Assembly: GCA_020796225.1 (NCBI GenBank)
Contig: CM036775.1
Location: forward strand, 4,475,393 to 4,539,392
Length of the DNA stretch: 64,000 bases
Reading direction: 5' to 3'
Source: Arion vulgaris
Lineage: Eukaryota > Mollusca > Gastropoda > Stylommatophora > Arionidae
Part shown: piece by piece, positions 29,621 to 50,620 of the stretch
How the letters are laid out: each line of letters starts with the position of its first letter
Position numbering within the stretch: the first letter of the stretch is position 1
Program-made: the position numbers and the translations under genes
Notes under the pieces: generated by a model
What the model saw: only the letters and a program-made list of their open reading frames with translations
Database searches by the model: none
What the model was told of the DNA's origin: nothing

Positions 29621-29641
29621 TAATATAGATACATTGAGAAA

Positions 29642-30084
29642 ATGCTTGCAATGCAATATGCAACAGTTGCAACTTACTTGCCCAAAGAAACTAGAACTTC
29701 TATGCATGTGGGTACTGCTCCCATATGCAAGATAGGAGCAGCAAAAACAGAGAAAAGTGCTTTAAAACCAGGTCGAGAAATCACCCAACGGACAGATCTC
29801 TATTGCGATGTATTGCGTAATTCAGATAACAACGAACATAAACTCTGTCAAAACCAAGATAACTCTTCTTCAATGATTACATCCCGTCCGCCTGTATCGT
29901 GTCCGAGAAAGAACAACCTCGACACATTGTCTACGAAGCTTCATCAGAACGACATCAAATTAGACACATCATCGAAGCCTGTTTATGCAAATACAAGTTA
30001 TGAATCGTACGATCAGGCTGCTAAAATTATTTTGCTTGGGGATTACAGCGTCGGGAAGTCCCGATTTCTGAGAACATTGTCAAG
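29642..30084 (+). CDS. Rab-like GTPase exon 1: N-terminal extension and P-loop
   Basis: The ATG at 29642 is the first after an in-frame TAA at 29621. The exon ends CAAG|GTAAGA, phase 2. Residues 1-125 form an N-terminal extension with no recognised domain, rich in Lys, Asn, Thr and Ser and with several Cys (YCDVL, LCQNQ, SCPRK), probably disordered. Residues 127-132 (KIILL-like strand beta1) lead into GDYSVGKS (133-140), a perfect GxxxxGKS phosphate-binding loop, then RFLRTLSR. Typical Rabs place the P-loop near residue 15-25, so the extension of more than 110 residues is unusual (Rab34/36-like proteins also have long N-termini). No membrane segment or signal peptide is visible. Confidence 0.85.
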
Positions 30085-30092
30085 GTAAGAGA

Positions 30093-30185
30093 AAATAATA
30101 ATAATTCTTCTCTCGTACTGTTATAAGTTACATAGCGCCTGCAAGTAATTTCTCCATACCGCTCTGTCCTTCTCAACTCGTTCAA
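30093..30185 (-). pseudogene. LINE 3'-end module in Rab-like intron 1
   Basis: The (AAT)n run followed by CTCGTACTGTTATAAGTTAC and TCCATACCGCTCTG is the same module as 7386-7470. It begins only about 8 bp after the exon 1 donor site. Confidence 0.6.
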
Positions 30186-30189
30186 TCTC

Positions 30190-30445
30190 TCGACGATGTG
30201 GTGCCGGGAACCGCAAGGGAAGCAAAGAATAGTATAGCTGCGACCTACAAGGCATGTCGTAAGAGGCGACTGACGTAGGACCTAGGAAAGCTACCCTAGT
30301 AAATAAATAGCTTCGGATGTGCTGGCCTACTTGTAGGGGCATAACTGGCACAACGTACAATCGCTCTTAGGCTCAGATGACTTGTAAGTCACACAGTGGT
30401 TAACAAATGGTAGATATGGAGCGTTCGATAAGAAGAAGAAGAAAC
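30190..30445 (+). mobile_element. SINE family B copy
   Basis: GATGTGGTGCCGGGAACCGC, core AAGGCATGTCGTAAGAGGCG, body GCTGGCCTACTTGTAGG, and tail GATAAGAAGAAGAAG. Confidence 0.85.
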
Positions 30446-30689
30446 TCAATCTCTTCCATGAAAGTGAACCCGATATTTCTTGTCTCTCTCAGCAAAGTTC
30501 GTTTCAGAGCCTCCTTAACCCTTTGAACCGCCCTCCCCATATTACGGTATTAGCATTAATACACGTATACCCAGGGTGCCTATATATCGGGATGAGAACC
30601 CCTCCTTGTTATTTGTCGGTGTTCAGCAATAACTTGTGTACTAGTGTGACGTCAAACACAGGAAATGCTTCTATTAAAGGTTTATCTAA

Positions 30690-31165
30690 ATGGCGCCCAA
30701 CTGAGATGGGTCGGTCACGTTGCTCGAATGCCTGATAAACGCATCCCAAAACAGTTGATGTATGGCGAGCTTGAAGGGGGCAGACGTTTAGCTGGTGGAC
30801 AGAAAAACGCTTTAAAGACACTCTTAAAGTGTCTCTGAAATGCTTCGATATAGACAATACGTGCTGGGAATCCCTTGCGCAAGATCGCCAAATGTGGCGC
30901 TGTAACAACAAAAGAGGAACCCGAATAGCTGAGAATCATCGTATTGTTGAGTCACAGAGAAAACGAGCAGCGCGAAAAGACAGAGCACACAACACGCACA
31001 TGTCTAACCTTGATCATGTATGCCCCACCTGTGGTCGGGGATTCTGTTCTAGGATTGGACTCTACAGTCACCTCCGCACACACCAGAGAGGTGCAACAGT
31101 ACACGTCTGAGATTGTTGTCATCATCGCTTGCGATGGACGGCTATTATGATCTAAATAGCGTCCT
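30690..31165 (+). pseudogene. LINE ORF2 C-terminus with terminal C2H2 finger
   Basis: The translation, over two frames, includes [20 protein letters not shown], then DIDNTCWESLAQDRQMWR, and ends VCPTCGRGFCSRIGLYSHLR with TH, a complete C2H2 zinc finger. The same layout closes the LINE at 46100-47565. Some non-LTR retrotransposons carry a terminal zinc finger thought to help nucleic-acid binding. There is no RT here. Confidence 0.85.
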
Positions 31166-31261
31166 CTTATTCTTGAACCATTTGTCTCCTATGTCAATGC
31201 CTGCTTTGGTATTCTTTGATCATTTCTTCTCAAGGTATATCAAACATATTTCCATCCTCTC

Positions 31262-31522
31262 CTTCTTCTTCTTCTTCTTCTTCGAACGCTCCACATTGAC
31301 CACTTATTAACAACTCTTTGTGATTTGTATGTTACCTGACCCTAAGAGCGATTGTGCCAGTTATGCGCCTACAAGTAGGCCAGCACATCCGATTTCTGCG
31401 ACGCTTTTTATTTACTAGGGTAGCTTCCCTCCCACTACCACAGTAGCCTCTTACGACATGCCTTGTAGGTCGCATTGTTACTATTCTTTGCTTCCCCCTG
31501 TGGATTTGGCAACACACGAGCG
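31262..31522 (-). mobile_element. SINE family B copy
   Basis: Full reverse copy from (TTC)n GAACGCTCCA through AGCCTCTTACGACATGCCTT to GGCAACACACGAG. Its 5' end directly abuts the 54-bp satellite. Confidence 0.85.
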
Positions 31523-31524
31523 CT

Positions 31525-34500
31525 CTTTCTTACAACAGTTGTTACTAGTGGTTGACCAGATATTTCTCTGATTTCATCACTTCTCTTTCTTATAACAGAT
31601 GTTACTAGTGGTTGACCAGATATTTCTCTGATTTCATCACTTCTCTTTCTTATAACAGATGTTACTACTGGTTGACCAGACATTTCTCTGATTTCATCAC
31701 TTCTCTTTCTTATAACAGATGTTACTAGTGGTTGACCAGACATTTCTCTGATATCATCACTTCTTATAACAGATGTTACTAGTGGTTGACCAGACATTTC
31801 TCTGATTTCATCACTTCTCCTTCTTATAACAGTTGTTACTAGTGGTTGACCAGACATTTCTCTGATTTCATCACTTCTCCTTCTTATAACAGATGTTATA
31901 GTGGTTGACCAGACATTTTCTGATTATCAACTTCTTATAACAGTTGTTACTAGTGGTTGACCAGAATTTTTCGATTTCATCACTTCTCCCTTATAACGAT
32001 GTTACTAGTTGACCAGATATTATCTCTGATTTCTCGTGTTATACAGATGTTACTAGTGTTGACAAGACATTTCTCTGATTTCATCACTTTATAACAGATG
32101 TTACTAGTGGTTGACCAGACATTTCTCTGATTTCATCACTTCTTATAACAGATGTTACTAGTGGTTTGACCTAGCCATTTCTCTGAATTCATCATTATAA
32201 CAGATGTACTGGGTTGACCAGACATTTCCTGATTTCATCATTATAAGGGATGATACTAGTTTGAGTTGACCAGACATTTCCTGATTTACATAGCTCTCTA
32301 TAACAGATGTTAACCTAGTGTTGACCAGACATTTTTCTGATTTCATCACCTCCTTCTTATAACAGATGTTACTAGTGGTTGAGATTGACATTTCTGATTT
32401 CATAACTTCTCCTCTTATAACATTTTGTTCCTATGTCTGACCAGACTGTTCTCTGATTGATCACTTTCTTTAACAGATGTTCAACTAGTTTGACCGACAT
32501 TTCTCTGATTTCATCACTTCCCTTCTTATAACAGTTGTTACTAGTGGTTGACTGCAGACATTTTCTGAGTTTATCTATGCTTCCTCACTAACAGTAGTTA
32601 CATGGTGGTTGCAGACATTTTTCTGATTTCATCACTTCTTATAACAGTTGTTACTAGTGGTTGACCAGAATTTCTCTGATTTCATCACTTCTTATAACAG
32701 ATGTTACTAGTGGTTGACCAGATATTTCTCTGATTTCATCACTTCTTATAACAGATGTTACTAGTGGTTGACCAGACATTTCTCTGATTTCATCCTTCTT
32801 ATAACAGATGTTACTAGTGGTTGACCAGACATTTCTCTGATTTCATCACTTCTTATAACAGATGTTACTAGTGGTTGACCAGACATTTCTCTGATTTCAT
32901 CACTTCTTATAACAGTTGTTACTAGTGGTTGACCAGACATTTCTCTGATTTCATCACTTCCTTATAACAGATGTTACTAGTGGTTGACCAGACATTTTCT
33001 GATTTCATCACTTCTCTCTATAACAGATGTTACTAGTGGTTGACCAAGACATTTTCTGATTTCATCACTTCTTCTTATAACAGATGTTACTAGTGGTTGA
33101 CCAGACATTTCTCTGATTTCATCACTTCTTTTCATAACATTGTTACTAGTGGTTGACCAGACATTTCTCTGATTTCATCACTTCCTTTATAACAGATGTT
33201 ACTAGTGGTTGACCAGACATTTCTCTGATTTCATCACTTCTCTTTTATAACAGATTGTTACTAGTGGTTGACCAGACATTTTCTGATTTCATCACTTCAT
33301 AACAGTTGTTACTAGTGGTTGACCAGACATTTCTCTGATTTCATCACTTCCTTTATAACAGATGTTACTAGTGGTTGACCAGACATTTCTCTGATTTCAT
33401 CACTTCTTATAACAGATGTTACTAGTGGTTGACCAGACATTTATCTGATTTCATCACTTCTCCTTCTTATAACAGTTGTTACTAGTGGTTGACCAGACAT
33501 TTCTCTGATTTCATAACTTCTTATAACAGATGTTACTAGTGGTTGACCAGAGATTTCTCTGATTTCATCACTTCTCCTTCTTATAACAGTTGTTACTAGT
33601 GGTTGACCAGAGACTTCTCTGATTTCATCACTTCTTATAACAGTTGTTACTAGTGGTTGACCAGAGACTTCTCTGATTTCATCACTTCTCTTCTATAACA
33701 GATGTTACTAGTGGTTGACCAGACATTTCTCTGATTTCATCACTTCTTATAACAGTGTTACTAGTGGTTGACCAACATTTTCTGATTTCATCACTTCTTA
33801 TAACAGATGTTACTAGTGGTTGACCAGACATTTTTCTGATTTCATCACTTCTTATAACAGTTGTTACTAGTGGTTGACCAGACATTTCTCTGATTTCATC
33901 ACTTCTTATAACAGATGTTACTAGTGGTTGACCAGACATTTCTCTGATTTCATCACTTCTTATAACAGATGTTACTAGTGGTTGACCAGAAATTTCTCTG
34001 ATTTCATCACTTCTTATAACAGATGTTACTAGTGGTTGACCAGACATTTCTCTGATTTCATCACTTCTTATAACAGATGTTACTAGTGGTTGACCAGACA
34101 TTTCTCTGATTTCATCACTTCTTATAACAGTTGTTACTAGTGGTTGACCAGAGACTTTTCTGATTTCATCACTTCTCCTTCTTATAACAGATGTTACTAG
34201 TGGTTGACCAGAGACTTCTCTGATTTCATCACTTCTTATAACAGATGTTACTAGTGGTTGACCAGAGATTTCTCTGATTTCATCACTTCTTATAACAGAT
34301 GTTACTAGTGGTTGACCAGACATTTCTCTGATTTCATCACTTCTTATAACAGATGTTACTAGTGGTTGACCAGACATTTCTCTGATTTCATCACTTCTTA
34401 TAACAGATGTTACTAGTGGTTGACCAGACATTTCTCTGATTTCATCACTTCTTATAACAGTTGTTACTAGTGGTTGACCAGAGACTTCTCTGATTTCATC

Positions 34501-35768
34501 ACTTCTTATAACAGTTGTTACTAGTGGTTGACCAGAGACTTCTCTGATTTCATCACTTCTTATAACAGTTGTTACTAGTGGTTGACCAGAGACTTCTCTG
34601 ATTTCATCACTTCTTATAACAGATGTTACTAGTGGTTGACCAGATATTTTTCTGATTTCATCACTTCTTATAACAGTTGTTACTAGTGGTTGACCAGACA
34701 TTTCTCTGATTTCATCACTTTTCCTTCTTATAACAGATGTTACTAGTGGTTGACCAGACATTTCTCTGATTTCATCACTTCTTATAACAGTTGTTACTAG
34801 TGGTTGACCAGAGACTTCTCTGATTTCATCACTTCTTATAACAGATGTTACTAGTGGTTGACCAGAGACTTCTCTGATTTCATCACTTCTTATAACAGTT
34901 GTTACTAGTGGTTGACCAGAGACTTCTCTGATTTCATCCCTTCTTATAACAGATGTTACTAGTGGTTGACCAGAGACTTCTCTGATTTCATCACTTTTCC
35001 TTCTTATAACAGATGTTACTAGTGGTTGACCAGAGACTTCTCTGATTTCATCACTTCTTATAACAGTTGTTACTAGTGGTTGACCAGAGACTTCTCTGAT
35101 TTCATCACTTCTTATAACAGTTGTTACTAGTGGTTGACCAGAGACTTCTCTGATTTCATCACTTCTCCTTCTTATAACAGATGTTACTAGTGGTTGACCA
35201 GAGACTTCTCTGATTTCATCACTTCTTATAACAGATGTTACTAGTGGTTGACCAGAGACTTCTCTGATTTCATCACTTCTTATAACAGTTGTTACTAGTG
35301 GTTGACCAGAACTTTCTGATTTCATCACTTCTTATAACAGTTGTTACTAGTGGTTGACCAGAGACTTCTCTGATTTCATCACTTCTTCTTATAACAGATG
35401 TTGCTAGTGGTTGACCAGACATTTCTCTGATTTCATCACTTCTTATAACAGATGTTACTAGTGGTTGAGCAGAGACTTCTCTGATTTCATCACTTCTTAT
35501 AACAGATGTTACTAGTGGTTGACCAGAGACTTCTCTGATTTCATCACTTCTTATAACAGATGTTACTAGTGGTTGACCAGAGACTTCTCTGATTTCATCA
35601 CTTCTTATAACAGATGTTACTAGTGGTTGACCAGAGACTTCTCTGATTTCATCACTTCTTATAACAGATGTTACTAGTGGTTGACCAGAGACTTCTCTGA
35701 TTTCATCACTTCTTATAACAGTTGTTACTAGTGGTTGACCAGAGACTTCTCTGATTTCATCACTTCTC
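31525..35768. repeat. 54-bp tandem satellite in Rab-like intron 1
   Basis: About 78 copies of a 54-bp unit containing TGTTACTAGTGGTTGACCAG and CTCTGATTTCATCACTTC. Units differ by marker changes (CAGATG/CAGTTG; CAGACATTTC/CAGAGACTTC) and an optional 6-bp insert TCCTTC. Because 54 and 6 are multiples of three, a minus-strand frame stays open for 548 codons (33682-35328). Copies at about 31880-32640 are heavily degraded by small indels. Confidence 0.97.
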
Positions 35769-36035
35769 CTGAATTCGTTTGATGAAAACGCAGAATAAGA
35801 AAAGAATTAGTTCCATTTTATTTTCGTTATTTTTCGGAGACATCTCCCAGGAGCAAATAGAAGAAATTAATTCTACCAATTTTAGAACATATTTGGATAC
35901 CATTTGGATTCTCCGAAAGGAGTTGATTCTTATTTTGCATGTTTGTTGGCCCATACGCTCTGTAACAGCCGAAACATAAAGATTTAACATCAATTTTAGT
36001 GACTTCATTCAACAGAAAAACTAACTACATGGGAA
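35769..36035. other. Mostly unassigned intronic sequence
   Basis: A short fragment at 35985-36015 resembles the RNase-H-family LINE C-terminus (the segment encoding TKIDV on the minus strand). The rest is unassigned. Confidence 0.4.
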
Positions 36036-36039
36036 ATGT

Positions 36040-36320
36040 AAGTAAAAGTAAAGGAACCCTTTCATAGATCGTGGTATATAGGTCAATACAGTGTTAGGCC
36101 TGTATTTTTCATTGACCGTCGGCACACGATGGGTGATGGGGTCAGCCTCACTCCGGCCGCCTTTACTTTCCCAGAGCATGTCTGGTACCCACTTGAGGCT
36201 GGGTCAACCTGAGAGCCGTCGCGGTCGGGAAAAATTCCACGCACACTGCAGGAGTTGAACCCAGACCACCAACCCTGAGAAGCGAGTTCACTAACAACTA
36301 CGCTACCGCGGCTCTCATGT
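36040..36320 (-). mobile_element. tRNA-derived SINE (family C)
   Basis: On the minus strand: GAGAGCCGCGGTAGCGTAGT (A-box region), CTGGGTTCAACTCCTG (B box), then the body with ATGCTCTGGGAAAGTAAAGG, as at 3430-3771. The B box is a near-perfect GGTTCAANTCC. Confidence 0.85.
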
Positions 36321-36354
36321 GAAATTGTGCTGCTTGCGAAAAGTTACTAACAAC

Positions 36355-36870
36355 ACCAGAAAAGACAGAGTCACCAACATCGGCATAAGAAAGAAAGTTG
36401 GCACAGAACCTTGCTTGAATTACATTGAGAAACAAAGAATGAAGTGATTTGGCCACTTAATAAGAATGCATCCAAACTCCCCAGTATTCAAGTCTTTACA
36501 ACAAAACATATTCAAGTCTTCTACAACAAAACCATCAGAGTCTTCTACAGCAAACCCGTATTAGAGTCTTCAACAAACCAAGTATAAGTCTACAACAACA
36601 ACACATTCAGTCTTTAACAACAAACCCACAGTATTAGAGTCTTCTACCCTCACAGTATCGAGTCTTCACAACAAACCATGGAAGAAGGGGGAAAACCATT
36701 AACAATGGTTAGATCATAGCAGATCATGCAAAAGCAAAATTACAATAACCAAGCCACTAGAACAGCCAAGACAAAAACAGAAAACCACGACACTGGGCAA
36801 CAACCCGGTAGCAGTGTGACGACACTGGGCAACAACCCGGTAGCAGTGTGACGGCAAAAGAAGAAAAGAA
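36355..36870 (+). pseudogene. LINE family 4 copy with internal tandem expansion
   Basis: Begins TACATTGAGAAACAAAGAAT and proceeds to the segment encoding RMHPNSPVFKSL. At 36478-36670 the region around CAGTATTCAAGTCTTCTACA is repeated about six times. The family 4 end with two tandem 31-bp units (GGCAACAACCCGGTAGCAGT) follows at 36785-36852. Compare the single-copy arrangement at 37975-38172. Confidence 0.8.
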
Positions 36871-37094
36871 AATTCAACAGACAGTCGCTGAGAAATCGAA
36901 TAATACACACCCCACTCTATCGATCTTAAACCAGAAAAGCAAAACATGTAAGAATGCAGCCGGCGTTATGTCGACCACAACACCCATCGTGTGCCAATGT
37001 TTAATGAACAATAGGGGCATAACTACTCTCTAATAAATCTCATTGAGAGATCCTTTCCGAACAACGGTGTTTCAGGGTTGTTATGTTATGTTAT
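36871..37094. other. Unassigned intronic sequence with (TTATG)n
   Basis: Nothing recognised except a short TTATG pentanucleotide run at 37080-37099. Confidence 0.4.
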
Positions 37095-37390
37095 GTTATG
37101 CGATCGACGTCACGGCACATTGGGCATTCCCATGCATGCTCTGTCCTCCGCTGCAGCAGCCATCCTAAAGTCCATTTCTCACCGTACCCATGAGAAGTTG
37201 ATTACTATATCTTCTCTCTCTCTACCACGAAGACGACACTGTCTGGCATGTTCACACTTAACGCCTAATTCTCGAACTCGTTCCAGTGTCTGAGACTTGC
37301 CCATGTCACATAATTGAGCGTACCGCATTGATGATACGCTCTGTCCATCTGGATCGCTGCATATGATATCGGCTCTGTCCATACTTGCTG
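37095..37390 (-). pseudogene. RNase-H-family LINE C-terminal fragment
   Basis: Minus-strand translation TLERVRELGVKCEHARQCRL and, further on, LLQRRTEHAWECPMCRDV, homologous to the tail at 18618-18860 (RRRSEHLWTCPECYD). Confidence 0.75.
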
Positions 37391-37409
37391 CCCTGTTTGA
37401 AGTCGTTCA

Positions 37410-37560
37410 GGGTTGTGAATCCCAGTTGGGGAGCATCTGGTCAAATGGATTAGAGCGCGGCTACCATACGGGAGATACGTGTTCAATTCACGGTAAAGCC
37501 AATGAGTTTTTGTTGTTATGGGCATGAATGAAAAATCCTAACGTGAACAGCTTTGCGGCG
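37410..37560 (+). mobile_element. tRNA-derived SINE (family H)
   Basis: AGCATCTGGTCAAATGGATT (A-box region) and TACGTGTTCAATTCACGGTA (B-box region), followed by a body with TTGTTATGGGCATGAATG. An inverted copy is at 62735-62880. Confidence 0.75.
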
Positions 37561-37654
37561 ACTGCACAAGCAATGCGGTCATTAAATTCCTCAGGCTCTC
37601 GTCCCACCTGTCCTAAGTCGCACTAAAAAATGGTACTACACGCAGTAACGTAGT

Positions 37655-37678
37655 CTCTCTCTCTCTCTCTCTCTCTCT
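37655..37678. repeat. (CT)n microsatellite
   Basis: Uninterrupted run of CT dinucleotides. Confidence 0.95.
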
Positions 37679-37679
37679 G

Positions 37680-37788
37680 AATCCCAGTTACTGATCAGCT
37701 TGAGAGAGTTGGGTGTCGATATTGGTACAGCCGAAAAATAACAACATATCAAACACGCAAAAATGTGAATCATCAACAGTGTACTGGT
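37680..37788 (+). pseudogene. RNase-H-family LINE fragment, left of nested LINE
   Basis: Encodes the region homologous to LTRLREMGVNIGAARKE of the 18.6-kb copy, with a frameshift. It resumes at about 38195 after a LINE family 4 insertion. Confidence 0.65.
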
Positions 37789-38192: not shown

Positions 38193-38194
38193 GT

Positions 38195-38365: not shown

Positions 38366-38461
38366 GGGTTCCTTTCCTTTTGTTAGGATTGTTGCTGGCG
38401 CTACGGCTTTCGTGCTTTGTGCAATACTCTAGGCAGGTGGCGTGCAATTTCTGCGGAGAGT

Positions 38462-38810: not shown

Positions 38811-38813
<3 letters not shown>

Positions 38814-38844: not shown

Positions 38845-38960
38845 AGTCAAGGACGAAGATAGTAATGGCCGCTGTACAGAGTTCAGAGATGGAGAAACAG
38901 CCTACGTTGTGTTCAGAATGGATAACAAGAGATCCCTGGTCAAGGTTATGGACACAGGAG
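38845..38960 (+). CDS. Rab-like GTPase exon 2: switch I region to DTGG
   Basis: The acceptor CTGAACAG ends at 38844 and the donor GGAG|GTAGGT is at 38961. It enters in phase 2 (restoring Arg148) and leaves in phase 1 (giving Gly187). Thirty-eight codons end AYVVFRMDNKRSLVKVMDTG, which aligns without gaps to the Rab beta2-beta3 strands and the WDTAG motif: the spacing from the basic KR to DT is the same as in Rab39-type proteins. The switch I segment (TEFRDGET) has no TIGxxF signature, so the Mg-coordinating Thr is not evident. DTGG replaces DTAG, as in Arf/G-alpha proteins. The exon is too short for ORF scans and was found by phase matching. Confidence 0.85.
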
Positions 38961-39064
38961 GTAGGTCAGGTCAACCATATGATATAAGGTCAATGACCTA
39001 CTCAACAAGAACAATTGGTTGTGACAAATGTTCAATATTTTCTGTTTGTTCTTCAATTGTTCAC

Positions 39065-39418
39065 ATCTTTTTTTAATTCTCTAAATCTATTCTCTAAATC
39101 TATTCTCTAAATCTATTCTCTATATTTATTCTTTAAATCTATCCTCTCTATCTATTCTCTTAATCTATTCTCTAAATCTATTCTCTATATATATTCTCTA
39201 TATCTATTTATGTCTATTCTCTATATCTATTCTCTATATTATATCTATATCTATATCTATATCTATTCTCTATATCTATTCTCTATATCTATTCTCTATA
39301 TCTATTCTCTATATCTATATCTATTCTCTATATCTATATCTATTCTCTATATCTATATTTCTATTCTTCTATATCTATTCTCTATATCTATTCTCTATAT
39401 CTATTCTCTATATCTATG
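39065..39418. repeat. (TCTATTCTCTATA)n microsatellite-like tract
   Basis: Pyrimidine-rich tract built of CTCTATATCTATT and ATCTAT words. It begins about 105 bp after the exon 2 donor. Confidence 0.95.
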
Positions 39419-39504
39419 AGTGGACATTTTTTGGCTCTGTCGTATGTGTACTTGGTCGCGACGAGGTCTGAGGATGTAGGGGGATAAAGGGAAGCTATCA
39501 ATGT
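39419..39504. other. Unassigned spacer
   Basis: Short unique-looking stretch between the microsatellite and the array E boundary. Confidence 0.4.
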
Positions 39505-39590
39505 CGTTTTACCTCTTCTTCTTCTTTGAACCCCAGGAATTATGATTTGTCACCCTTTTTCCTATGTTTAAGTGGGAGGGAAGTACCCGG
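39505..39590 (-). repeat. Boundary of array E: tail and one array-A-type unit, inverted
   Basis: The reverse complement reads ...TTTTTGGGTCTGAAAGAAAG, then GGGAGGAAGT-type sequence, then AGGAAAAAGGGTGACAAATC and ATAATTCCTGGGGTTC. This equals one array A unit plus the array A tail (12481-12575), in inverse orientation. Confidence 0.75.
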
Positions 39591-42500
39591 CTTTCTTTCA
39601 GACCCAAAAACCTCCAACAACTCGAGGCGTGTAGTGACATACTTAGTGCTGCAGAAACCTCAACAACTCTAGGCGTGTAGTGCCAGCAACCTCCAACAAC
39701 TCTAGACGTGTAGTGACATGCTTAGTGCTGCACAAACCTCCAACAACTCTAGGCGTGTAGTGACAGCAGTGCCAGAAACTTCAGCAACTCTGGCTGTGTG
39801 ACAGCAACCTCCAACAGCTCTAGACGTGTGACATGTGTCTGCACAACCTCCAACAACTCTAGGCGTGTAGTGACATGCTTAGTGCTGCAAAAACCTCCAA
39901 CAACTCTAGGCGTGTAGTGCCAGCAACCTCCAACAACTCTAGACGTGTAGTGACATGCTTAGTGCTGCACAAACCTCCAACAACTCTAGCGTGTAGTGCA
40001 GCAACCTCCAACACTCTAGGACGTGTAGTGACATGCTTAGAACTCACAACTGCGTGTGCACAGCAACCTCCAACAACTCTAGGCGTGTAGTGACATCTTA
40101 GTGCTGCAAAACCTCCAACAACTCTAGGCGTGTAGTGCCAGCAACCTCCAACAACTCTAGGCGTGTAGTGACATGCTTAGTGCTGCAAAACCTCCAACAA
40201 CTCTAGGCGTTAGTGCTGAGTGCGCAGAACCTCCAACAACTCTAGGCGTGTAGTGACATGCTTAGTGCTGCAGAAACCTCCAACAACTCTAGGCGTGTAG
40301 TGACAGCAACCTCCAACAACTCTAGACGTGTAGTGACATGCTTAGTGCTGCACAAACCTCCAACAACTCTAAGCGTGTAGTGACATGCTTAGTGCTGCAG
40401 AAACCTCCAACAACTCTAGGCGTGTAGTGACATGCTTAGTGCTGCAAAAACCTCCAACAACTCTAGGCGTGTAGTGCCAGCAACCTCCAACAACTCTAGA
40501 CGTGTAGTGACATGCTTAGTGCTGCACAAACCTCAACAACTCTAGGCGTGTAGTGCCAGCAGGCCTGCAGAACTCCAAGACTCTAGGACTGTAGTGCTGC
40601 AAACCTCCAACAGCTCTAGACGTGTAGTGCAACGCAAACCTCCAACAACTCTAGGCGTGTAGTGACATGCTTAGTGCTGCAAAACCTCAACAACTCTGAG
40701 CGTGTAGTGCAGCAACCTCCAACAACTCTAGACGTGTAGTGACATGCTTAGTGCTGCAAAAACCTCCAACAACTCTAGGCGTGTAGTGACATGCTTAGTG
40801 CTGCAAAAACCTCCAACAACTCTAGGCGTGTAGTGCCAGCAACCTCCAACAACTCTAGGCGTGTAGTGACATGCTTAGTGCTCTGCAGTCAAACCTCCAA
40901 CAACTCTAGAGCGTGTAGTGACATGCTTAGTGCTGCAAAACCTCCAACAACTCTAGGCGTGTAGTGACATGCCTTAGTGCTGCAGTAGCAAACCTCCAAC
41001 AACTCTAGGCGTGTAGTGACATGCTTAGTGCTGCAGAAACCTCCAACAGCTCTAGACGTGTAGTGACATGCTTAGTGCTGCAGAAACCTCCAACAACTCT
41101 AGGCGTGTAGTGACAGCAACCTCCAACAGCTCTAGACGTGTAGTGACATGCTTAGTGCTGCAAAAACCTCAACAACTCTAGACGTGTAGTGACAGCAACC
41201 TCCAACAAGCTCTAGCGTGTAGTGACATGCTTAGTGCTGCAAAACCTCCAACAACTCTAGACGTGTAGTGACATGCTTAGTGCTGCAGAAACCTCCAACA
41301 GCTCTAGACGTGTAGTGACAGCAACCTCCAACAACTCTAGACGTGTAGTGACATGCTTAGTGCTGCAAAACCTCCAACAACTCTAGACGTGTAGTGACAT
41401 GCTTAGTGCTGCAGAAACCTCCAACAACTCTAGGCGTGTAGTGACATGCTTAGTGCTGCAGAAACCTCCAACACTCTAGACGTGTGACAGGTGCACCTCA
41501 ACAGCTCTAGACGTGTGTGCAGCAAACCTCCAACAGCTCTAGACGTGTAGTGACATGCTTAGTGCTGCAGAAACCTCCAACAATCTCTAGACATGTTAGT
41601 GCAGCAACCTCCAACAGCTCTAGACGTGTAGTGACATGCTTAGTGCTGCAGAAACCTCCAACAACTCTAGACGTGTAGTGACATGCTTAGTGCTGCAGAA
41701 ACCTCCAACAGCTCTAGACGTGTAGTGACATGCTTAGTGCTGCAAAAACCTCCAACAGCTCTAGACGTGTAGTGACATGCTTAGTGCTGCAGAAACCTCC
41801 AACAGCTCTGACGTGTAGTGACATGCTAGTGCTGCAGAAACCTCCAACAGCTCTAGACGTGTGTGACATGTAGTGCTGCGAAACCTCCAACTCGGCGTGT
41901 AGTGCTGCAGGGTAAAACCTCCAACAGCTCTAGACGTGTAGTGACATGCTTAGTGCTGCAGAAACCTCAACAACTCTAGCGTGTGTACCTAGCACCAAAC
42001 TCTGAGTGAGACATTGCAGAGAAATCAACAGCTCAGAGAGGATGTAGGCGAACTCAACAACTCTGACGTGTAGTGACATGCTTAGTGCAGCAAACCTCCA
42101 ACAGCTCTAGACGTAGTACATGCTTAGTGCTGCAAACTCAACAACTCTAGACGTGTAGTGACATGCTAGTGCTGCAGAAACCTCCAACAGCTCTAGCGTG
42201 TGACAGTGCGAAGAAAGTCGCAACTCTAGACGTGTAGTGACATGCTGTGCAGAATATCCTCCAACACTCTAGACGTATGACCTATGAATCATCCAACAGC
42301 TCTAGACGTGTAGTGACATGCTTTTCCTAGTAAACTGTCACAACTCTGACGTGTATCATGTGTTTATCTGCAGACCTCAACAGTTTATGGACGTGTAGTG
42401 ACATGCTTAGTGCTGACTGTGTAACCTCCAACAACTCTAACGTGTAGTGACATGTTACGTGCTTACGAGATACTTACATCTCTGTATACGTGTAGTGACA

Positions 42501-44605
42501 TGCTTAGTGCTCAGAAACCTCCAAAATCTAATGTATTGCTCTTTGCAGGACAGAAAATTCCAGCCTCCTAGGTCGTTATGACAATGCCTTATGATGTTCA
42601 GAAACCCCAACAATCTAGACTGTATGTTAGTGAACATCAGTTCGTTCAAAATCTAACATCTTTACGACGATATACATCACTTGCGAAAGAAACTTCAAAG
42701 CTCTGGACGTGTAGTGACATGCTTAGTGCTGCTAAAACCTTTTATAGTAAATATAGCGTGTAGTGACATGCTAGTTTAAGACGTAGAAGCCTCAAATAGC
42801 TTTGCTTAACAATGTCGGAGTAAATTAGGAATTAGTGGATAAATCCATCAATTAGAACGATGTCAGTGACATGTATATCACAACTCTTCAGCTCTAGACG
42901 TGAGTACATGTTAGTCTCAATTCCCAAAAACTCTAGACGTGTCAGTAATGCAGCCTGCAAAATCTAACAGTTCTACGTGTAGTGACATGCTTGTCTTTCA
43001 GAACCTCAACTAGCTCTGCTGTAGTACATGCTTAGCACAAAACTCGCTACTACAACTACGTATAAAGAACCTCCAACAATCTAACTGTAGTGACATGCTT
43101 AGGGCTGCAGAACACCTCAACATACCCTTTGGACAGTGTTAGTTGACAGCAACCTCCAACAGCTCTAGACGTGTAGTGACATGCTTAGTGCTGCAAAAAC
43201 CTCCAACAGCTCTAGACGTGTAGTGACATGCTTAGTGCTGCAGAAACCTTCAACAACTCTAGACGTGTAGTGACATGCTTAGTGCAGCAGAAACCTCCAA
43301 CAGCTCTAGACGTGTAGTGACATGCTTAGTGCTGCAGAAACCTCCAACAACTCTAGACGTGTAGTGACATGCTTAGTGCAGCAGAAACCTCCAACAGCTC
43401 TAGACGTGTAGTGACAGCAACCTCCAACAGCTCTAGACGTGTAGTGACATGCTTAGTGCTGCAGAAACCTCCAACAACTCTAGACGTGTAGTGACAGCAA
43501 CCTCCAACAGCTCTAGACGTGTAGTGACATGCTTAGTGCTGCAAAACCTCCAACAACTCTAGACGTGTAGTGACATGCTTAGTGCTGCAGAAACCTCCAA
43601 CAGCTCTAGACGTGTAGTGACATGCTTAGTGCTGCAGAAACCTCCAACAACTCTAGACGTGTAGTGACATGCTTAGTGCTGCAGAAACCTCCAACATCTC
43701 TAGGCGTGTAGTGACATGCTTAGTGCTGCAGAAACCTCCAACAACTCTAGACGTGTAGTGACATGCTTAGTGCAGCAGAAACCTCCAACAGCTCTAGACG
43801 TGTAGGACATGTTAGTGCTGCAAAACCTCAACAGCTCTAGACGTGTAGTGACATGCTTAGTGCTGCACAAACCTCCAACAGCTCTAGACGTGTAGTGACA
43901 TGCTTAGTGTAGCAGAAACTCCAACAGCTCTAGCTGTAGTGACAGTTAGTGCTGAAACCTCCAACAACTCTAGACGTGTAGTGACATGCTTAGTGCAGCA
44001 AAAACCTCCAACAGCTCTAGACGTGTAGTGACATGCTTAGTGCTGCAAAAACCTCCAACAGCTCTAGACGTGTAGTGACATGCTTAGTGCTGCACAAACC
44101 TCCAACAGCTCTAGACGTGTAGTGACATGCTTAGTGCAGCAGAAACCTCCAACAGCTCTATGCGTGTAGTGACATGCTTAGTGCTGCAGAAACCTCCAAC
44201 AACTCTAGACGTGTAGTGACATGCTTAGTGCAGCAGAAACCTCCAACAGCTCTAGACGTGTAGTGACATGCTTAGTGCTGCAGAAACCTCCAACAACTCT
44301 AGACGTGTAGTGACATGCTTAGTGCTGCAGAAACCTCCAACAGCTCTAGACGTGTAGTGACATGCTTAGTGCAGCAGAAACCTCCAACAGCTCTAGACGT
44401 GTAGTGACATGCTTAGTGCTGCACAAACCTCCAACAACTCTAGACGTGTAGTGACATGCTTAGTGCTGCAGAAACCTCCAACAACTCTAGGCGTGTAGTG
44501 ACAGCAACCTCCAACAGCTCTAGACGTGTAGTGACATGCTTAGTGCTGCAGAAACCTCCAACAGCTCTAGACGGAGTGACATGCTTAGTGCTGCAGAGAT
44601 TCCTA
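39591..44605. repeat. About 47-bp tandem satellite (array E), 5 kb
   Basis: Roughly 100 copies of a unit containing AACCTCCAACAACTCTAGGC (or AGCTCTAGAC) and GTGTAGTGACATGCTTAGTG, joined by CTGCAGAA, CTGCACAA or CAGCAGAA. A shorter variant, lacking the CATGCTTAGTG part, is interspersed. Left-hand units are mostly AACTCTAGGC and right-hand ones mostly AGCTCTAGAC. The centre (about 41460-43150) is strongly degraded. It ends GCTGCAGAGATTCCTAATCC, matching the start of the ancestral unit at 10755. Confidence 0.97.
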
Positions 44606-44764
44606 ATCCGGTCTACTTTTACTTATAAAGTCAGGGAATGAAGGTCCGCAGATGGCGGGGAACACCGATTAGAAAGAGAAAGCAGGCTTCACGCAAAATC
44701 AGTCAGAAGAATCCAGACGTCCTGACTACGCCTTGAATTCATAGCGGCAAACGTAGAAAAGAGT
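44606..44764. repeat. Dispersed repeat shared with 54.5 kb
   Basis: Sequence containing CACGCAAAATCAGTCAGAAG and GAATTCATAGCGGCAA is similar to 54525-54610 (CACAAAAATCAGCAAGAAAC and TATTCATAGCGTGATGCAAG). Class unknown. Confidence 0.5.
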
Positions 44765-44767
44765 GCC

Positions 44768-45205
44768 TTGTTATCTGTGTTTTTATCTGTGTTTTTATCT
44801 GTGTTTTTATCTGTGTTTTTATCTGTTTTTACCTGCGTTTTTACCTATGTTTTTATCTGTGTTTTTATCTGTGTTTTTATCTGTGTTTTTATCTGTGTTT
44901 ATCTGTGTTTTTACTTGCGTTTTTATCTGTGTTTTTATCTGTGTTTTTATCTGTGTTTTTATCTGTGTTTTTATCTATGTGTTTTTATCTATGTGTTTTT
45001 ATCTGTGTTTTTATCTGTGTTTTTATCTATGTGTTGTTATCTGTGTTATTATCTGTGTTATTATCTGTGTTTTTATCTGTGTTTTTATCTGTGTTATTAT
45101 CTGTGCTTTTATCTGTGTTATTATCTGTGTTATTATCTGTGCTTTTATCTGTGTTATTATCTGTGCTTTTATCTGTGTTATTATCTGTGGTTTTCTCTAT
45201 GTTTT
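44768..45205. repeat. 12-bp tandem array (TTATCTGTGTTT)n
   Basis: About 36 copies with variants (TTATTATCTGTG, TTTTATCTATGTG). The period of 12 opens long Phe/Leu/Cys/Val reading frames in all three + frames, which are artefacts. It ends about 47 bp before exon 3 of the Rab-like gene. Confidence 0.97.
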
Positions 45206-45251
45206 TATTTCTAAAATTATAAATATAATGATGTTTGCTTCTCCCTTGCAG

Positions 45252-45360
45252 GACAAGAAAGATATCGCAGCCTGACCTGGTCGTACTATAGAGGGGCAAA
45301 TGGTTGCCTACTTTTATTTGATGTTACAAGAGAGGACACATTTAGCAATATTATGAACTG
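45252..45360 (+). CDS. Rab-like GTPase exon 3: switch II
   Basis: The acceptor CTCCCTTGCAG ends at 45251 and the donor AACTG|GTACTT is at 45361. Entry is phase 1 and exit phase 2. It encodes QERYRSLTWSYYRGANGC and then LLLFDVTREDTFSNIMN. Q188 of DTGGQ is the catalytic-Gln position and is conserved. SYYRGA and FDVT are the most strongly Rab-like blocks (Rab family motifs around switch II and beta4). A 12-bp tandem array ends only about 50 bp before this exon. Confidence 0.9.
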
Positions 45361-45362
45361 GT

Positions 45363-45798
45363 ACTTGATTTCCATAACTATTCAAGTTCGTTTCAAAATT
45401 CTTGAACATCTTTACCGACCGATATAAAATCATCCACTTGACAGAAATTATTGATTTTTACGTTTTTTATATAACTAACAGTGGCGACCTTCGTAAAGTA
45501 TTTTTGCCCATCAAACCTTTAGCGCTATAAACTTTTACTTATTTGTTATTAGTAAAATAATAGCGATATTGATTTGGTATACATGTAGAAGTTTAACAGT
45601 ACGATAGTCAAGTTTTCCTAAAATTACGCATTTGCGTGCTCCACACCCAATTCAGCGAAAGTAAAATTTAGGAATCTAGTGGAATAAATCATTTCACAAT
45701 GTATCCGAAGGATTGTCATTGACGTATGTATATACCATCTCTTTTCATTGATAGAAGTGGAAGGTATAATTTGTTCACTATGTCACATTACTTTTTAT
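45363..45798. other. Intron 3 sequence, nothing recognised
   Basis: AT-rich intronic sequence without identifiable features. Confidence 0.4.
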
Positions 45799-45799
45799 A

Positions 45800-46040
45800 T
45801 AGGGTGTTCAAGATAAAAGCAGCCCCATTGACAAATCAAAAGTTGCTACGTATGTATTGCATTTTGTCTATTTACTAGTTAGACCGGCTCTGACTAGCTC
45901 GTCCTTTCATCACATTGCCCCTTCCAGCACCAAAAAGACTCGCTTACTTGACCTATACTACGTCATAAATGAACCTCATTTTCATAAACATATGCTAAAT
46001 TGGCTCCCTTGATGGGGCTGCTTTTATCTTGAACACTCTG
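45800..46040. mobile_element. Tc1/mariner-type MITE (241 bp)
   Basis: Termini TAGGGTGTTCAAGATAAAAG and CTTTTATCTTGAACACTCTG form a 28-bp inverted repeat with TA flanks. The interior is homologous to 26870-27126 (GGCTCTGACTAGCTCGTCCT). Confidence 0.9.
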
Positions 46041-46099
46041 TAATATATAGCCTAATAGGGATACACATTTGCAATAGTTTCAGATTCTAGTTTACATTT

Positions 46100-47565
46100 C
46101 ATCGTGACCTGTTCATCGACTTGACCAAGGCGTTTGATACGGTCAGTAGAGAAGGTCTCTGGAAGATCATGGCTAAATATGACTGTACTGAAAAATTCAT
46201 CAAGATTGTGCAGCAATTGCATAAGGGGATGAACGCCAGAATGCAGGACCAAGGCGAGCTATCAGAGCCTTTTCTCGTCCTGAATGTAGCCAAACAAGGC
46301 TGTGTGATTGCACCAACTCTGTTTAGCATTATGTTTTCTGCCATGCTGACCGATGCATTCAGAGATGGTCACATAGGTGTCGACATCAAGTATCGTACAG
46401 ATGGAAAACTTTTAAACCCAAGGAGACGTCATCCAAAAACAAAGGTAAAGTCTGATACCATCAGAGATCTCCTATTTGCTGACGACTGTCCTCTCATTGC
46501 CAACACTGAGCAGATCTCCAGACTAGCATGGACAGATTCTCACAAGCCTGCTCCAACTTTGGTCTTACCATCAATACCGAGAAATCTGAAGTCATGTACC
46601 AACCAGCTCCTGGAAATGTATATGCCGAACCAAATATTACAACAAGCGGCAAGAAACTGAAAGTAGTGGACAGATTTACTTATCTTGGAAGCACACTGTC
46701 CCAAAATGTCACCATAGACGATGAAATAAATACCAGAATCTCTAAAGCTAGCAGCACCTTTGGTAGACTACATAGAAATGTCTGGCACAGATGTGGTATT
46801 GGCCAAGCCACAAAACTGAAGGTATATCAAGCTGTCGTGCTCTCAGTCCTTCTTCACGCATGCGAAACTTGGACTGTATATCAGCGACACGCAAGGAAGC
46901 TAAACCACTTTCACACAGTCTGCCTTAGAAAAATAATGAACATCAAATGGCAGGATATTATCCCCGATACAGAGGTCCTGAAAAGAGATGCTCTCCCCAG
47001 CATCTACACAATCTTGATGCAGTCCCAGGCACGATGGACAGGACATGTGGCTCGAATGCCAGATTGCAGAATACCCAAACGACTCTTTCATGGTGAGCTG
47101 TATAGTGGTAAACGCTAACAGGGTGGTCAGAAAAAGCAATTCAAAGACACACTCAAGAACTCGATGAAATCCTTTGGCATAGATGTCGACAACTGGGAGA
47201 ATGTTGCTCAAGACAGATCAGCCTGGCGCACACGTCTTCGACACGGTTCTTCGGCCTGCAGGCAGATAGAACTGTACGGATGGAACAAAAACGTCAAAAT
47301 AGAAAAGCAGTAAAACTCCCCACAAGTGCAAATATACTCTGCCCACACTGTACAAGAACATTTCAAGCCCGCATGGGGCTCACTAGTCATCTACGCACAC
47401 ACAGACAAACATAACGCAACTACATTTCCTTGGATGAGAATTGTGTGGTCATCATCACCCATGATGGACGAGCATCAGTATACATTTAGTGACACGGAGA
47501 TGCAAATTGCTCCTGGACCAAAACCAGAGCCAACTATAAACGTATGGGCCTTCGGACTCAGGTAA
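46100..47565 (+). pseudogene. LINE ORF2: reverse transcriptase to terminal C2H2 finger, frame-broken
   Basis: The most complete retrotransposon coding segment in the window. RT motifs appear in order: FIDLTKAFDTV (motif with first catalytic Asp), KQGCVIAPTLFS, LLFADDC (catalytic Asp pair), INTEKSEVMY and TYLGSTLSQN. Then come [45 protein letters not shown], and a C2H2 finger CPHCTRTFQARMGLTSHLRT with H. At least three frameshifts (near 46510, 47110-47120 and 47300) and a stop near 47116 disable it. The endonuclease and palm start are missing (5' truncation at about 46100). It lies in intron 3 of the Rab-like gene. Confidence 0.9.
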
Positions 47566-47890
47566 GAATTATGGGAGATCAGACCCCAACTAAACCATGT
47601 GACCTCGCATTCCAGTATTGGTGTATATAGACGAATTCATTTTAAAATCAACACAAAATGCTAAATCGAAGTTATATCATGCAACAAGTTAAGTTTAACA
47701 ATAATGAATATCAATATTATAAATATTTTTCACCAATAAATAACCATTGACTCACAGAATTGAGTAAAATTGTAAAAAAGCTTGCAGTGCTCTATCAAAC
47801 ACCTATATTTTCCGGTCTCCTTTTCTGATCTAGGTCAGGTAACCCCTTGTCAGTTGTCTGGCCTAGTTATCTAAAGTTGGCTGTGCCAAA
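47525..47890 (+). mobile_element. LINE 3'-UTR module G
   Basis: Continues from the LINE ORF2 end (last codons ...INVWAFGLR then TAA) as AGCCAACTATAAACGTATGG through TATCTAAAGTTGGCTGTG. It is homologous to 10376-10740 and, inverted, 52375-52745, which identifies those as 5'-truncated copies of this LINE. Confidence 0.75.
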
Positions 47891-48090
47891 ACTCAATGAG
47901 AGGATAAACTAAAAATAGATTGATTCGACACGTGCCGAGCTCATAGGCTCTCACTGCTCAAATCCGAGTGGATGTTGTAAAGGAAGACAGTGGTAGTTTT
48001 TCCGTGACTACAAGCAGTCTCACTATGGGCATCATGACAGTAACTAAAGCGATGATCTGGCTGGAGTCATAGACTCTTATCCGTGCACGT
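47891..48090. other. Spacer between LINE end and 30-bp array
   Basis: Unassigned. An early AACTCAATGAGAGG at 47889-47902 resembles the array unit. Confidence 0.4.
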
Positions 48091-48094
48091 TTTC

Positions 48095-49945
48095 TCATTG
48101 GCTCAATGAGTATGCCCAGGAAACTGTGACTCAATGAGTATGCCCAGGAAGCTGTGACTCAATGAGTGTGTACAGGAAGCTCAGTGACTCAATGAGTATG
48201 ACCAGGAAGCTCACTGACTCAATGAGTATGCACAGGAAGCTCACTGACAAATGAGAATGCCCAGGAAGCTCAGTGACTCAATGGTATGCTGGGAGCTCTG
48301 ACTCAATGAGTATGCCAGGAAGCTCAGTGACTCAATGAGTATGCCCAGGAAGCTCAGTGACTTATAAAATTTAGGCTAATTCAGTGACTCATGAGTATGC
48401 CCAGGAAGCTCACTGACTCAATGGTATGCCGAAGCCAGTGACTCAATGAATATGCCAGAAGCTCACTGACTCAATAGTATGCCGGAAGCTCACTGACTCA
48501 ATGAGCATGCCCAAGCCGCTCAGTGACTCAATAGTCATCGCCAGAAGCTCAGTGACTTATAAATTTTATGAGAATTCAGTGACTCAATGAGTACCCAGAG
48601 CTACTGAGCTCAATATAGTGCCGGAAGCAGTGACTCAATGAATATGCTCAGAGCCACTGATCAAAGTATGCCCGGAGCTCACTGGCTCAATGTATGCCCA
48701 GGAGCTCAGACTCAATAGTATCCATGTGAAGCTCAGTGACATTCCATTATGAGCTAATTCAGGATCATGTTACAGAAGCCATGACCAAAGATGCTAAACT
48801 CACTACATAGTATGCCAGAGCTCAGTACTCAAAAGTATGCAATACTCATGACTTATAAATATTTATACAATTCAGTAACTCAATAGTATCCCAGGAAGCT
48901 CACTGATCAATGTACAGAAGCTCAGTGACTCAATAATATTTCCAGAGCCACTGATCAATGAGTAGTCAGGAAGCTCACTACTCTGCAGTATGCCTGGCTC
49001 AGTGACTCATGAGATTGGCTAGGAAGCTCAGTGACTGATAAACTAATATGAGCTAATTCGAGTGACTCATGAGTATGCTCGGTCACTGCTCAATGAGTGC
49101 GAGCTCATGTCAAGGAGATGCCAGGAGCTAGTATCATGGTGACTCAAGCCAGTGACTATAATATTATGGAGCATCATGACAATAGTATCTAGAAGCACTG
49201 ATCAATGAGCTGCGAGCTCATGACTCAATAATATCCAGGAGCTCATGACTCAATGAGTATGCCCAGGAAACTACTGACTCAATGAGTATGCCCAGGAAGC
49301 TGTGACTCAATGAGTATGCCAGGAAGCTCAGTGACTATAAATATTGAGCTATTCAGTGACTCAGGATCGGAAGCTCACTGACTCAATGAGTATGCCAGGA
49401 AGCTCAGTGACTCAATGAAATGCCCAGGAAGCTCAGTGACTCAATGAGTATGCCCAGGAAGCTCACTGACTCAATGAGTATGCCCAGGAAGCTCAGTGAC
49501 TCAGTGAGTATGCCCAGGAAGCTCAGTGACTTATAAATATTTATGAGCTAATTCAGTGACTCAATGAGTATGCCCAGGAAGCTCACTGACTCAATGAGTA
49601 TGCCCAGGAAGCTCAGTGACTCAATGAATATGCCCAGGAAGCTCAGTGACTCAATGAGTATGCCCAGGAAGCTCACTGACTCAATGAGTATGCCCAGGAA
49701 GCTCAGTGACTCAATGAGTATGCCCAGGAAGCTCAGTGACTTATAAATGTTTATGAGCTAATTCAGTGACTCAATGAGTATGCACAGGAAGCTCAGTGAC
49801 CCAATGAGTATGCCCAGGAAGCTCACTGACTCAATGAGTATGCCCAGGAAGCTCAGTGACTCAATGAGTATGCCCAGGAAGCTCAGTGACTCAATGAATA
49901 TGCCCAGGAAGCTCATGACTAATGAATATGCCCAGGAAGAATGAA
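48095..49945. repeat. 30-bp satellite with seven-unit higher-order repeat
   Basis: Unit TGACTCAATGAGTATGCCCA plus GGAAGCTCAG. In the well-preserved right part every seventh unit is replaced by a divergent 30-mer (TTATAAATATTTATGAGCTA plus ATTCAGTGAC) at 49531 and 49741, giving a 210-bp higher-order period. Traces of the divergent unit recur at about 48360, 48552, 48853, 49035 and 49336. The stretch 48360-49300 is degraded. Confidence 0.95.
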
Positions 49946-50049
49946 ACATACTGTGCTCAGAGACTATGGTTAAAGTCGCTGATGAGGTATAGATTGACAA
50001 AAATAAATTTTATTTAATGTGGCCAAAATAGTTCATCTTCCGCGACACG

Positions 50050-50245
50050 ATGTTATTTATGAGCTAATTCTTCTTGATATGCAGGCATTGTTTTGTCTCT
50101 TCTCTGACGTTCCAATAACTTTTCTGTATCACTGTACTTAGCAAAAGTTTCCAATTTGTATGCTGTTTCAATAGTTTTGTCAATGTCTTAGTGCGAAAGC
50201 AACGGCTAGACTTCTGACTTCTTTCGTACAATCTCCATTGTTGTT
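50050..50245 (-). pseudogene. Possible LTR-retrotransposon gag fragment
   Basis: Read on the minus strand in two frames: DCTKEVRSLAVAFALR, and after a shift DKTIETAYKLETFAKYSDTE ending AYQEELAHK and a stop. The amphipathic, charged text with A-x-K-L-E-x-F resembles gag-like proteins of Ty3/gypsy elements, but this is a weak assignment. Its 3' end contains GAGCTAATTC in inverse, the same words found in the divergent 30-mer of the adjoining array. Confidence 0.4.
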
Positions 50246-50304
50246 AATTATAGAGCCATAATTCTAACACACTCAATTCAAATATCCATTTTTTTTCCGT
50301 ACAG

Positions 50305-50620
50305 GTATCAAGATCTGAGCAACTTCTCCAGCCATCAGTTTGTTGGCGCCATTTTGGTTGGCATTACATCAAATTTACAAACGAGAACTGTAACTCTTGA
50401 ACGATGTCTCAAGATGGCTGAAAGTCTGGGTATGCCTTATATGGAGTGTTTCCTTGACAACGAAGAAACGACATCGGCAATAGTTCAAAGGTTGATTGAG
50501 ACAATTTCAAAAGTTGGATTACGTCGGACTTCTTTTACGATTCAAATTAAACCGCGGCTAAAAGGGAGAACTAAATCACGAGATATCTTAGAAACACACC
50601 AAATGTGTACATGCACGTAA
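50305..50620 (+). CDS. Rab-like GTPase exon 4: degenerate G4/G5 and C-terminus
   Basis: The acceptor TTTCCGTACAG ends at 50304, restoring Trp223. Residues 224-327 run YQDLSNFSSHQF and then AILVGITSN. In Rabs the last part is LVGNKxD; here I243-T-S-N246 takes its place, so guanine specificity through Asn-Lys-x-Asp is lost. The SAK (G5) position reads ECFLD (270-274). Helix alpha5 (SAIVQRLIETISK) is retained. A basic segment (KPRLKGRTKSR) and a Cys-Thr-Cys-Thr end (C324, C326) could be a variant of the Rab double-cysteine prenylation site, although canonical ends are CC, CxC or CCxx. Stop is TAA. Confidence 0.88.

Follow-up and report, generated by a model that had tools for sequence, protein, structure and literature searches.

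The NKxD motif (G4) is a hallmark of guanine-nucleotide proteins. IFT22/RABL5, a Rab-like subunit of the ciliary intraflagellar transport complex IFT-B, reportedly lacks G4 and binds adenosine triphosphate (ATP) as well as guanosine triphosphate (GTP), as Wachter is said to have found in 2019, and we know of no CxC tail in this protein. Its function in trypanosomes has been reported to be independent of nucleotide state (review, PMC12089063). PseudoGTPases are sorted into classes in passages of PMC5593906, with p190RhoGAP pG1 and pG2, CENP-M, Rnd and RGK among them, and a passage of PMC12314375 describes kappaB-Ras as a constitutive subunit or scaffold that has low nucleotide affinity and acts independently of nucleotide. 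Among Rabs, EhRabX10 and EhRabX3 of Entamoeba, which have non-canonical G motifs, are termed pseudoRab GTPases in the available text of PMC8514894. Here, we describe a predicted four-exon gene on the forward strand of a 64,000-nucleotide stretch of the slug Arion vulgaris (contig CM036775.1, 4,475,393–4,539,392; hereafter the window, in whose numbering positions are given). Its predicted product of 327 amino acids, the Arion protein, belongs to a Rab-derived clade of molluscs without the guanine-recognition motif. The clade would be a variant of the pseudoGTPases, a kind already known.

The small G-protein domain that serves as a criterion for the Rab family in the part of PMC3192815 used here was present in the Arion protein as a Pfam Ras match over residues 128–291 (101.5 bits, cut-off 21.6), and the closest solved structures were Sec4, Rab1, Rab3, Rab11 and Rab8. 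The protein carries GDYSVGKS (G1, the P-loop; 30038–30061), DTGGQERY, SYYRGANG and LLFDVT, while ITSN (50363–50374) replaces NKxD, FLD (50450–50458) replaces SAK (G5), and no T[IVLM]G is found between G1 and G3. This motif state had been proposed in an initial annotation of the DNA, and both motif reading and alignment agreed with it. The features of a canonical guanine switch (NKxD, SAK and the switch I Thr) are thus missing together: with Asp at Ras position 28, Phe at position 35, ITSN and FLD, the Arion protein lacks every base contact as well as the switch I Thr, and Asn, not His, occupies position 119. The Rab-family motifs, called by eye and with simple patterns rather than with the MAST models of PMC3192815 (as described in the text available), were partly present: RYRSLT, YYRGA and LLFDVT were found, and igvdf and the W of klqiw were absent. 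Identity to the references was at most 35% (six best of 17, in an incomplete set of subfamilies). By this measure, the protein falls below the line of 40% identity to the best match, given in the same part of PMC3192815 for assigning a Rab subfamily, for any human subfamily among the references compared.

Three protein searches, two of which contributed the best 120 of 831 and the best 120 of 7981 matches, yielded 216 distinct proteins. Together with the Arion protein and 12 typed references, these made up 229 rows, of which 225 were aligned; P0046, P0050, P0053 and P0060 were omitted from the resulting tree as too short. When the motif columns were excluded, 73 of the 225 rows formed one clade (support 97). 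In a 75-row tree, also built without the motif columns, all 52 family rows were separated from 23 canonical rows with support of 100/99, and the clade lay among the Rabs in this set, in which HRAS was the sole non-Rab outgroup; this tree omitted 21 of the 73 family rows, which were partial, concatenated, near-duplicate or cassette-isoform sequences. The first list of 73 family rows had been chosen by eye, and the 225-row tree repeated the NKxD test on all listed matches without such a choice. Its 73-row clade consisted of 71 rows of the by-eye list plus P0137 and P0146.

NKxD was found in none of the 73 family rows of the by-eye set, compared with 23 of 23 canonical rows, and in 0/73 clade rows of the 225-row tree, compared with 150/152 rows outside it. 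The two exceptions outside the clade, P0047 and P0199, retain the Asp. Asp119 itself was kept in 10/73 (by-eye set) or 11/73 (225-row clade) rows, and its commonest substitute was His (30/73 or 31/73, depending on the set). SAK was absent from the whole family (0/73, versus 19/23 canonical rows), and SA was present in 16/73 versus 23/23. A T[IVLM]G motif between G1 and G3 occurred in one of 70 family rows, compared with 22 of 23 canonical rows (the exception being HRAS), and this one match, TMG in P0018, was placed by eye in the β2–β3 hairpin. Thr occupied the Thr35 column in 4/68 family rows, never as TIG, and an aromatic residue was found at Ras position 28 in 5/62 clade rows that have the column, versus 150/150 outside; these switch I and position 28 counts are softer, as the alignment is poor in this region. 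The RabF1 pattern was found in 0/73 clade rows versus 136/152 outside, and the Trp at Ras position 56 was retained in 17/73 clade rows. Kept in the clade were Lys16 (69/69), Ser/Thr17 (67/70), Asp57 (71/73) and Gln61 (73/73), and a CxC was found among the four C-terminal residues of 69/73 family rows; the four exceptions are two partial sequences, P0018 and P0030, and two proteins ending in CVIS, P0048 and P0142. Taken together, the alignments show that most residues at the base end and in switch I were lost, and that most at the phosphate end, in switch II and in the tail were retained.

The erosion differs in degree across the clade. In many bivalve rows, in the chiton and in Haliotis P0138 and Gigantopelta P0041, TK or TR still precedes the place of the missing Asp and EVS is retained at G5, whereas the Arion branch and most other gastropod rows are without G5. 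The clade rows with species names are all molluscs by genus, comprising gastropods, bivalves and one chiton (Liolophura P0149); no cephalopod was found in the family among the matches listed. Haliotis P0138, Gigantopelta P0041 and the chiton P0149 form the earliest branches. From their distribution, the motif losses look as old as the family. Provided that the tree is correct (its deep nodes are only moderately supported), the family itself would date back at least to the divergence of chitons from the other molluscs represented. Given the spread of the losses in the family, the eroded state looks to have been retained over time. The proposal of a divergent, lineage-specific Rab was thus supported by a mollusc clade with shared motif losses. 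The initial annotation had described a single eroded protein, however, and while the erosion is real, this description was too narrow, since the losses are common to gastropods, bivalves and a chiton. In several rows (P0006–P0009, P0016 and P0019, from Nucella, Babylonia and others), switch I holds Ser-rich, partly Gln/His-rich inserts of variable length, as if the loop were under no constraint. Outside the clade, Pomacea canaliculata P0047 combines two Rab-like stretches in which GNKxD is replaced by GTKVD and ASRLD.

The fold was assessed with predicted models of two relatives rather than of the Arion protein itself. The model of the early-branching Haliotis P0138 (mean predicted local distance difference test score (pLDDT) 86.6) was nearest to Rab8, Rab1 and Rab4, and that of the orthologue Candidula P0001 (mean pLDDT 66.6) to Rab8, Rab3 and Rab11. 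In the latter, most core blocks had pLDDT values of 85–98, with weaker loops, and the N-terminal extension had block means below 60 over the first 150 residues. Both models give a full Rab fold for these relatives, as predictions.

Canonical Rab3, Rab8 and Rab1/Sec4, which provided the best sequence and structure matches, resemble the mollusc family in fold, switch II, RabF3–F5 type motifs and C-terminal cysteines, but differ in having the NKxD, SAK, switch I Thr and RabF1 that the family lacks. Compared with the pseudoGTPases in the passages of PMC5593906, the mollusc protein is stand-alone and Rab-derived, has an intact P-loop and Gln61 and a predicted lipid anchor, and the losses in its family are concentrated at the base end and in switch I. 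kappaB-Ras, as described in the passage of PMC12314375, shares with the mollusc family the absence of the aromatic base-stacking residue of switch I; it has neither the catalytic Gln nor a membrane tail but does have the switch I Thr, whereas the reverse is true of the mollusc family. By analogy, these two sets of passages show that such states exist elsewhere (PMC5593906, PMC12314375). IFT22/RABL5 is likewise Rab-like, but it is an IFT-B subunit, and it was likened to the mollusc family by description only. EhRabX10 has also lost G3, unlike the mollusc family, and the available text of PMC8514894 gives no family-wide pattern for EhRabX10 or EhRabX3. Among the matches listed in searches of the open-access literature on mollusc and lophotrochozoan Rabs, there was no such family, and the only pseudo-Rab without NKxD that came up in the open-access literature searched was the amoebic EhRabX10.

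The Arion gene consists of exons at 29642–30084, 38845–38960, 45252–45360 and 50305–50620 on the forward strand (443 + 116 + 109 + 316 bases), which make up 327 codons and a TAA stop. The in-phase joining of these exons and their open frame had been claimed in the initial annotation and were reproduced by direct translation, which gave no internal stop. The three introns (8.8, 6.3 and 4.9 kb) are of the GT-AG type, with donors gtaaga, gtaggt and gtactt and cag at all three acceptors, and an in-frame stop begins 21 bases 5′ of the ATG, at position 29621. Exon 1 encodes the start codon, a 121-residue N-terminal extension that is predicted to be disordered, β1 and the P-loop; the N-terminus MLAMQYA pairs with MIGAQYA of Candidula P0001 in the alignment. 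Exon 2 encodes the switch I region, with no TIG or IGVDF, up to DTG (24/39 residues identical to Candidula P0001). Intron 2 splits a codon within DTGG/QERY in phase 1 (38960–45253). Exon 3, with a PF00071 match in the genome scan, contains switch II and the RabF3–F5 type motifs SYYRGANG and FDVT (31/37 residues identical to Candidula), and exon 4 runs from β5 through α5 to the tail and the stop codon (35/68 core residues identical). The tail includes IQIKP (50540–50554; aliphatic-x-aliphatic-basic-Pro), in which the Pro is invariant in 13/13 rows and the Ile is conserved in at least 90%; we take it to resemble the CIM motif of Rab tails that binds Rab escort protein (REP). The C-terminal CTCT (50606–50617) is a predicted prenylation site in the register of the CxC of the family.

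On balance, we lean towards reading this Rab-derived protein as a lipid-anchored adaptor that has kept its grip on phosphate and magnesium, has lost its grip on guanine and exists in one state rather than acting as a GTP switch. The sequence basis is twofold: the losses seen in Arion at the position 28 aromatic, Asn116/Asp119, Ser-Ala-Lys 145–147, Thr35 and IGVDF are common to most or all of the family, and Lys16, Ser/Thr17, Asp57, Gln61, the switch II/α2/β4 stretch and the CxC tail are retained. The two tail cysteines would be geranylgeranylated, placing the protein on a membrane. With no base contact, nucleotide binding would be weak and indifferent to guanine (any nucleoside triphosphate (NTP), or only its di- or triphosphate part) or would not occur, and such a base-blind protein would therefore not respond to guanine nucleotide exchange factors (GEFs). 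Without Thr35, switch I could not report the γ-phosphate, and the conserved switch II face would thus serve as an unchanging docking site; the rapidly changing segment of switch I would be free to bear partner specificity. Several points weigh against an adaptor of this kind. The invariance of Gln61 (73/73) and Lys16 (69/69) would be odd if no NTP were ever handled. Asp119 persists in 11 of 73 clade rows, as NNCD in scallops, in a VNLD-like form in sea slugs and as IKRD in P0151, and some relatives may thus be able to recognize guanine. The details also cast doubt on prenylation, as the Arion protein ends in CTCT instead of a terminal CxC and P0048 and P0142 in CVIS, and the aromatic residues used by REP and GDP dissociation inhibitor (the RabF1 Phe and the Trp at position 56) are mostly gone. 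In addition, some known GTPases bind nucleotide despite lacking either the Asp or Thr35.

The same invariant residues could instead be those of an active but base-unspecific NTPase, which would bind and hydrolyze ATP or any NTP through its P-loop, Asp57 and Gln61 and switch on that basis. Lys16 (69/69), Asp57 (71/73) and above all Gln61 (73/73) speak for this; the unvarying Gln61 argues most strongly that some NTP is still hydrolyzed, and the recurrence of His at position 119 in 30/73 rows may reflect a selected change rather than drift. The Arion protein has Asn at that position, however, and with no aligned equivalent of Thr35 (Thr in 4/68 rows, none as TIG), sensing of the γ-phosphate would need another route. 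One class of the bivalve cassettes described below is, moreover, without Gly15 of the P-loop (GVSKTS) and Gly60 (DTCSQ). We regard such an NTPase as unlikely, but as the most serious competitor to the adaptor. A protein that still cycles normally as a guanine-nucleotide switch, other residues having taken over base recognition as they do in divergent GTPases, would agree with the good Rab fold modelled in two relatives and with the retained Gln61. It is made quite improbable by the simultaneous absence in Arion of the switch I Thr and of every contact to the base (D28, F35, ITSN, FLD).

Two further alternatives concern the integrity of the Arion copy. The absence of the switch I, G4 and G5 motifs and the extensive tandem arrays in each of the introns might be signs of a gene decaying or dead in the Arion genome only. 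Candidula unifasciata P0001, however, matched the Arion protein with 47% identity over 97% of its length (E = 9.9e-75) and formed a small clade with it, Aplysia P0002 and Physella P0003 (support 99/97), and NKxD, sought in relatives because its presence there had been named in advance as evidence against the initial annotation, was intact in 0/73 family rows. Across the four orthologues, 78 of 200 ungapped columns were invariant, and the Arion protein had eight private departures in these 200 columns, compared with 9, 10 and 20 in the other three. The Arion copy is thus not decaying faster than its orthologues: decay should have left it with the highest number of private departures, and it has the lowest. 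A lone decaying copy was rejected on the grounds of continuous orthologues, clade-wide loss of NKxD and this count; with its open frame and good splice sites, the gene is very unlikely to be a pseudogene, as had been claimed from the outset, and local decay, largely refuted, retains very little probability. A misjoining of exons from two genes across 21 kb, for which the long, array-bearing introns could be cited, seems similarly remote. Single orthologous proteins from Candidula, Aplysia and Physella, although perhaps themselves automatic gene models, continue through all three junctions in the alignment, and Arion and Candidula share ungapped segments at junction 1 (SRVKDED), junction 2 (DTGGQERY) and junction 3 (MNWYQDL). 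The three splice junctions are therefore supported by continuous orthologous proteins. A paralogue, L009, also has boundaries at DTGG/QERY and after W, and its protein, P0020, is present in UniRef, presumably derived from a transcript.

The boundary at intron 2 recurs in bivalves. Fourteen isoform-numbered proteins from five bivalves, placed on contigs of a single length in each species, have, within each species, an identical C-terminal half and differing N-terminal parts: Mercenaria P0127, P0131 and P0132; Ruditapes P0129, P0133, P0134 and P0135; Dreissena P0143 and P0144; Pecten P0040, P0042 and P0053; and Mizuhopecten P0126 and P0137. These are automatic gene models, compared as proteins, and names and identities suggest that the models of each bivalve seemingly belong to one gene per species. 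The common half starts at DTxG/QE, the place of Arion intron 2, or no more than four residues N-terminal to it. Among the best 40 of 109 pairs, several N-terminal halves were closer to a half from another species than to one from their own: identities were 86% between Mercenaria X2 and Ruditapes X4, 58% between Mercenaria X3 and Ruditapes X5, and 88% between Pecten X2 and Mizuhopecten X2, versus 32% between the two Mizuhopecten halves. The case of Ruditapes X3 was less clear (53% identity with Mercenaria X2, 50% with X4 of the same species). The N-terminal part of Pecten P0053 has no P-loop, and in the class with GVSKTS and DTCSQ the glycines of the phosphate loop and switch II are altered. 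When the 73 family proteins were compared with the window by tblastn (E ≤ 0.01), only the four known exons were matched; at this sensitivity, no cassette swap is seen in the Arion gene.

Paralogue L009 lies 16 Mb away on the same contig (contig positions 20400001–20409000) and encodes Arion vulgaris P0020, with 98% identity over the first 107 residues and a match in the next exon as well (coding parts at about 3093–3413 and 4967–5077 of the region). It shares the boundaries of the window gene, but its N-terminal half is in one exon instead of two. To see whether canonical Rab genes of this genome share the intron at DTxG/QE, eight regions were compared; the only clear Rabs among these, the Rab7-like L016 and L017, have none there, L010–L012 had no pattern match, and the rest look Rho-type or unrelated by eye, so that nothing follows from this set. 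Tentatively, and with less assurance than for the adaptor itself, we suggest a base-blind Rab adaptor with a swappable N-terminal half: the bivalve locus would join several ancient P-loop/switch I halves, some without a working P-loop, at DTxG/QE to one constant half that extends from switch II to the lipid tail, the slug would keep the boundary with a single half, and switch I would be an exon-encoded recognition surface. We know of no other Rab with alternative exons at the switch boundary. No exon-swapped Rab was found among the best 12 of 32 matches in the open-access literature searched.

Every intron of the Arion gene contains long tandem arrays: 77 copies of a 54-bp unit in intron 1 (31527–35767), 47/94-bp arrays in intron 2 (39679–44597), a further array at 44771–45208 and a 30-bp array in intron 3 (48094–49939). 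Among the matches listed for the protein search with the Arion protein, there was no Arion entry for the window gene. Elsewhere in the window, a 215-codon open stretch at 19563–20210 (+), with an acceptor-like cag, a Cys-rich start (CLCTGNFCN) and a hydrophobic end, looks by eye like the last exon of a glycosylphosphatidylinositol-anchored Ly6-type protein; it had no Pfam match. Likely remnants of non-long-terminal-repeat retrotransposons are found at 46091–47118 (+), 18618–19319 (−), 8734–9183, 25619–26017 and 53888–54328, with Pfam matches to reverse transcriptase (46091–46660) and RNase H (18618–19319); the others were judged by eye. Nothing in the window was matched in scans for Rfam families and tRNAs.

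A clade that is without NKxD but has invariant Lys16 and Gln61 in the rows seen amounts to a natural experiment in Rab function without guanine, and it also bears on whether Gln61 and switch II persist because they serve catalysis or because they contact other proteins. Should the cassette swap prove real, a small G protein would be diversified through the use of alternative exons that meet the constant half at the switch boundary.

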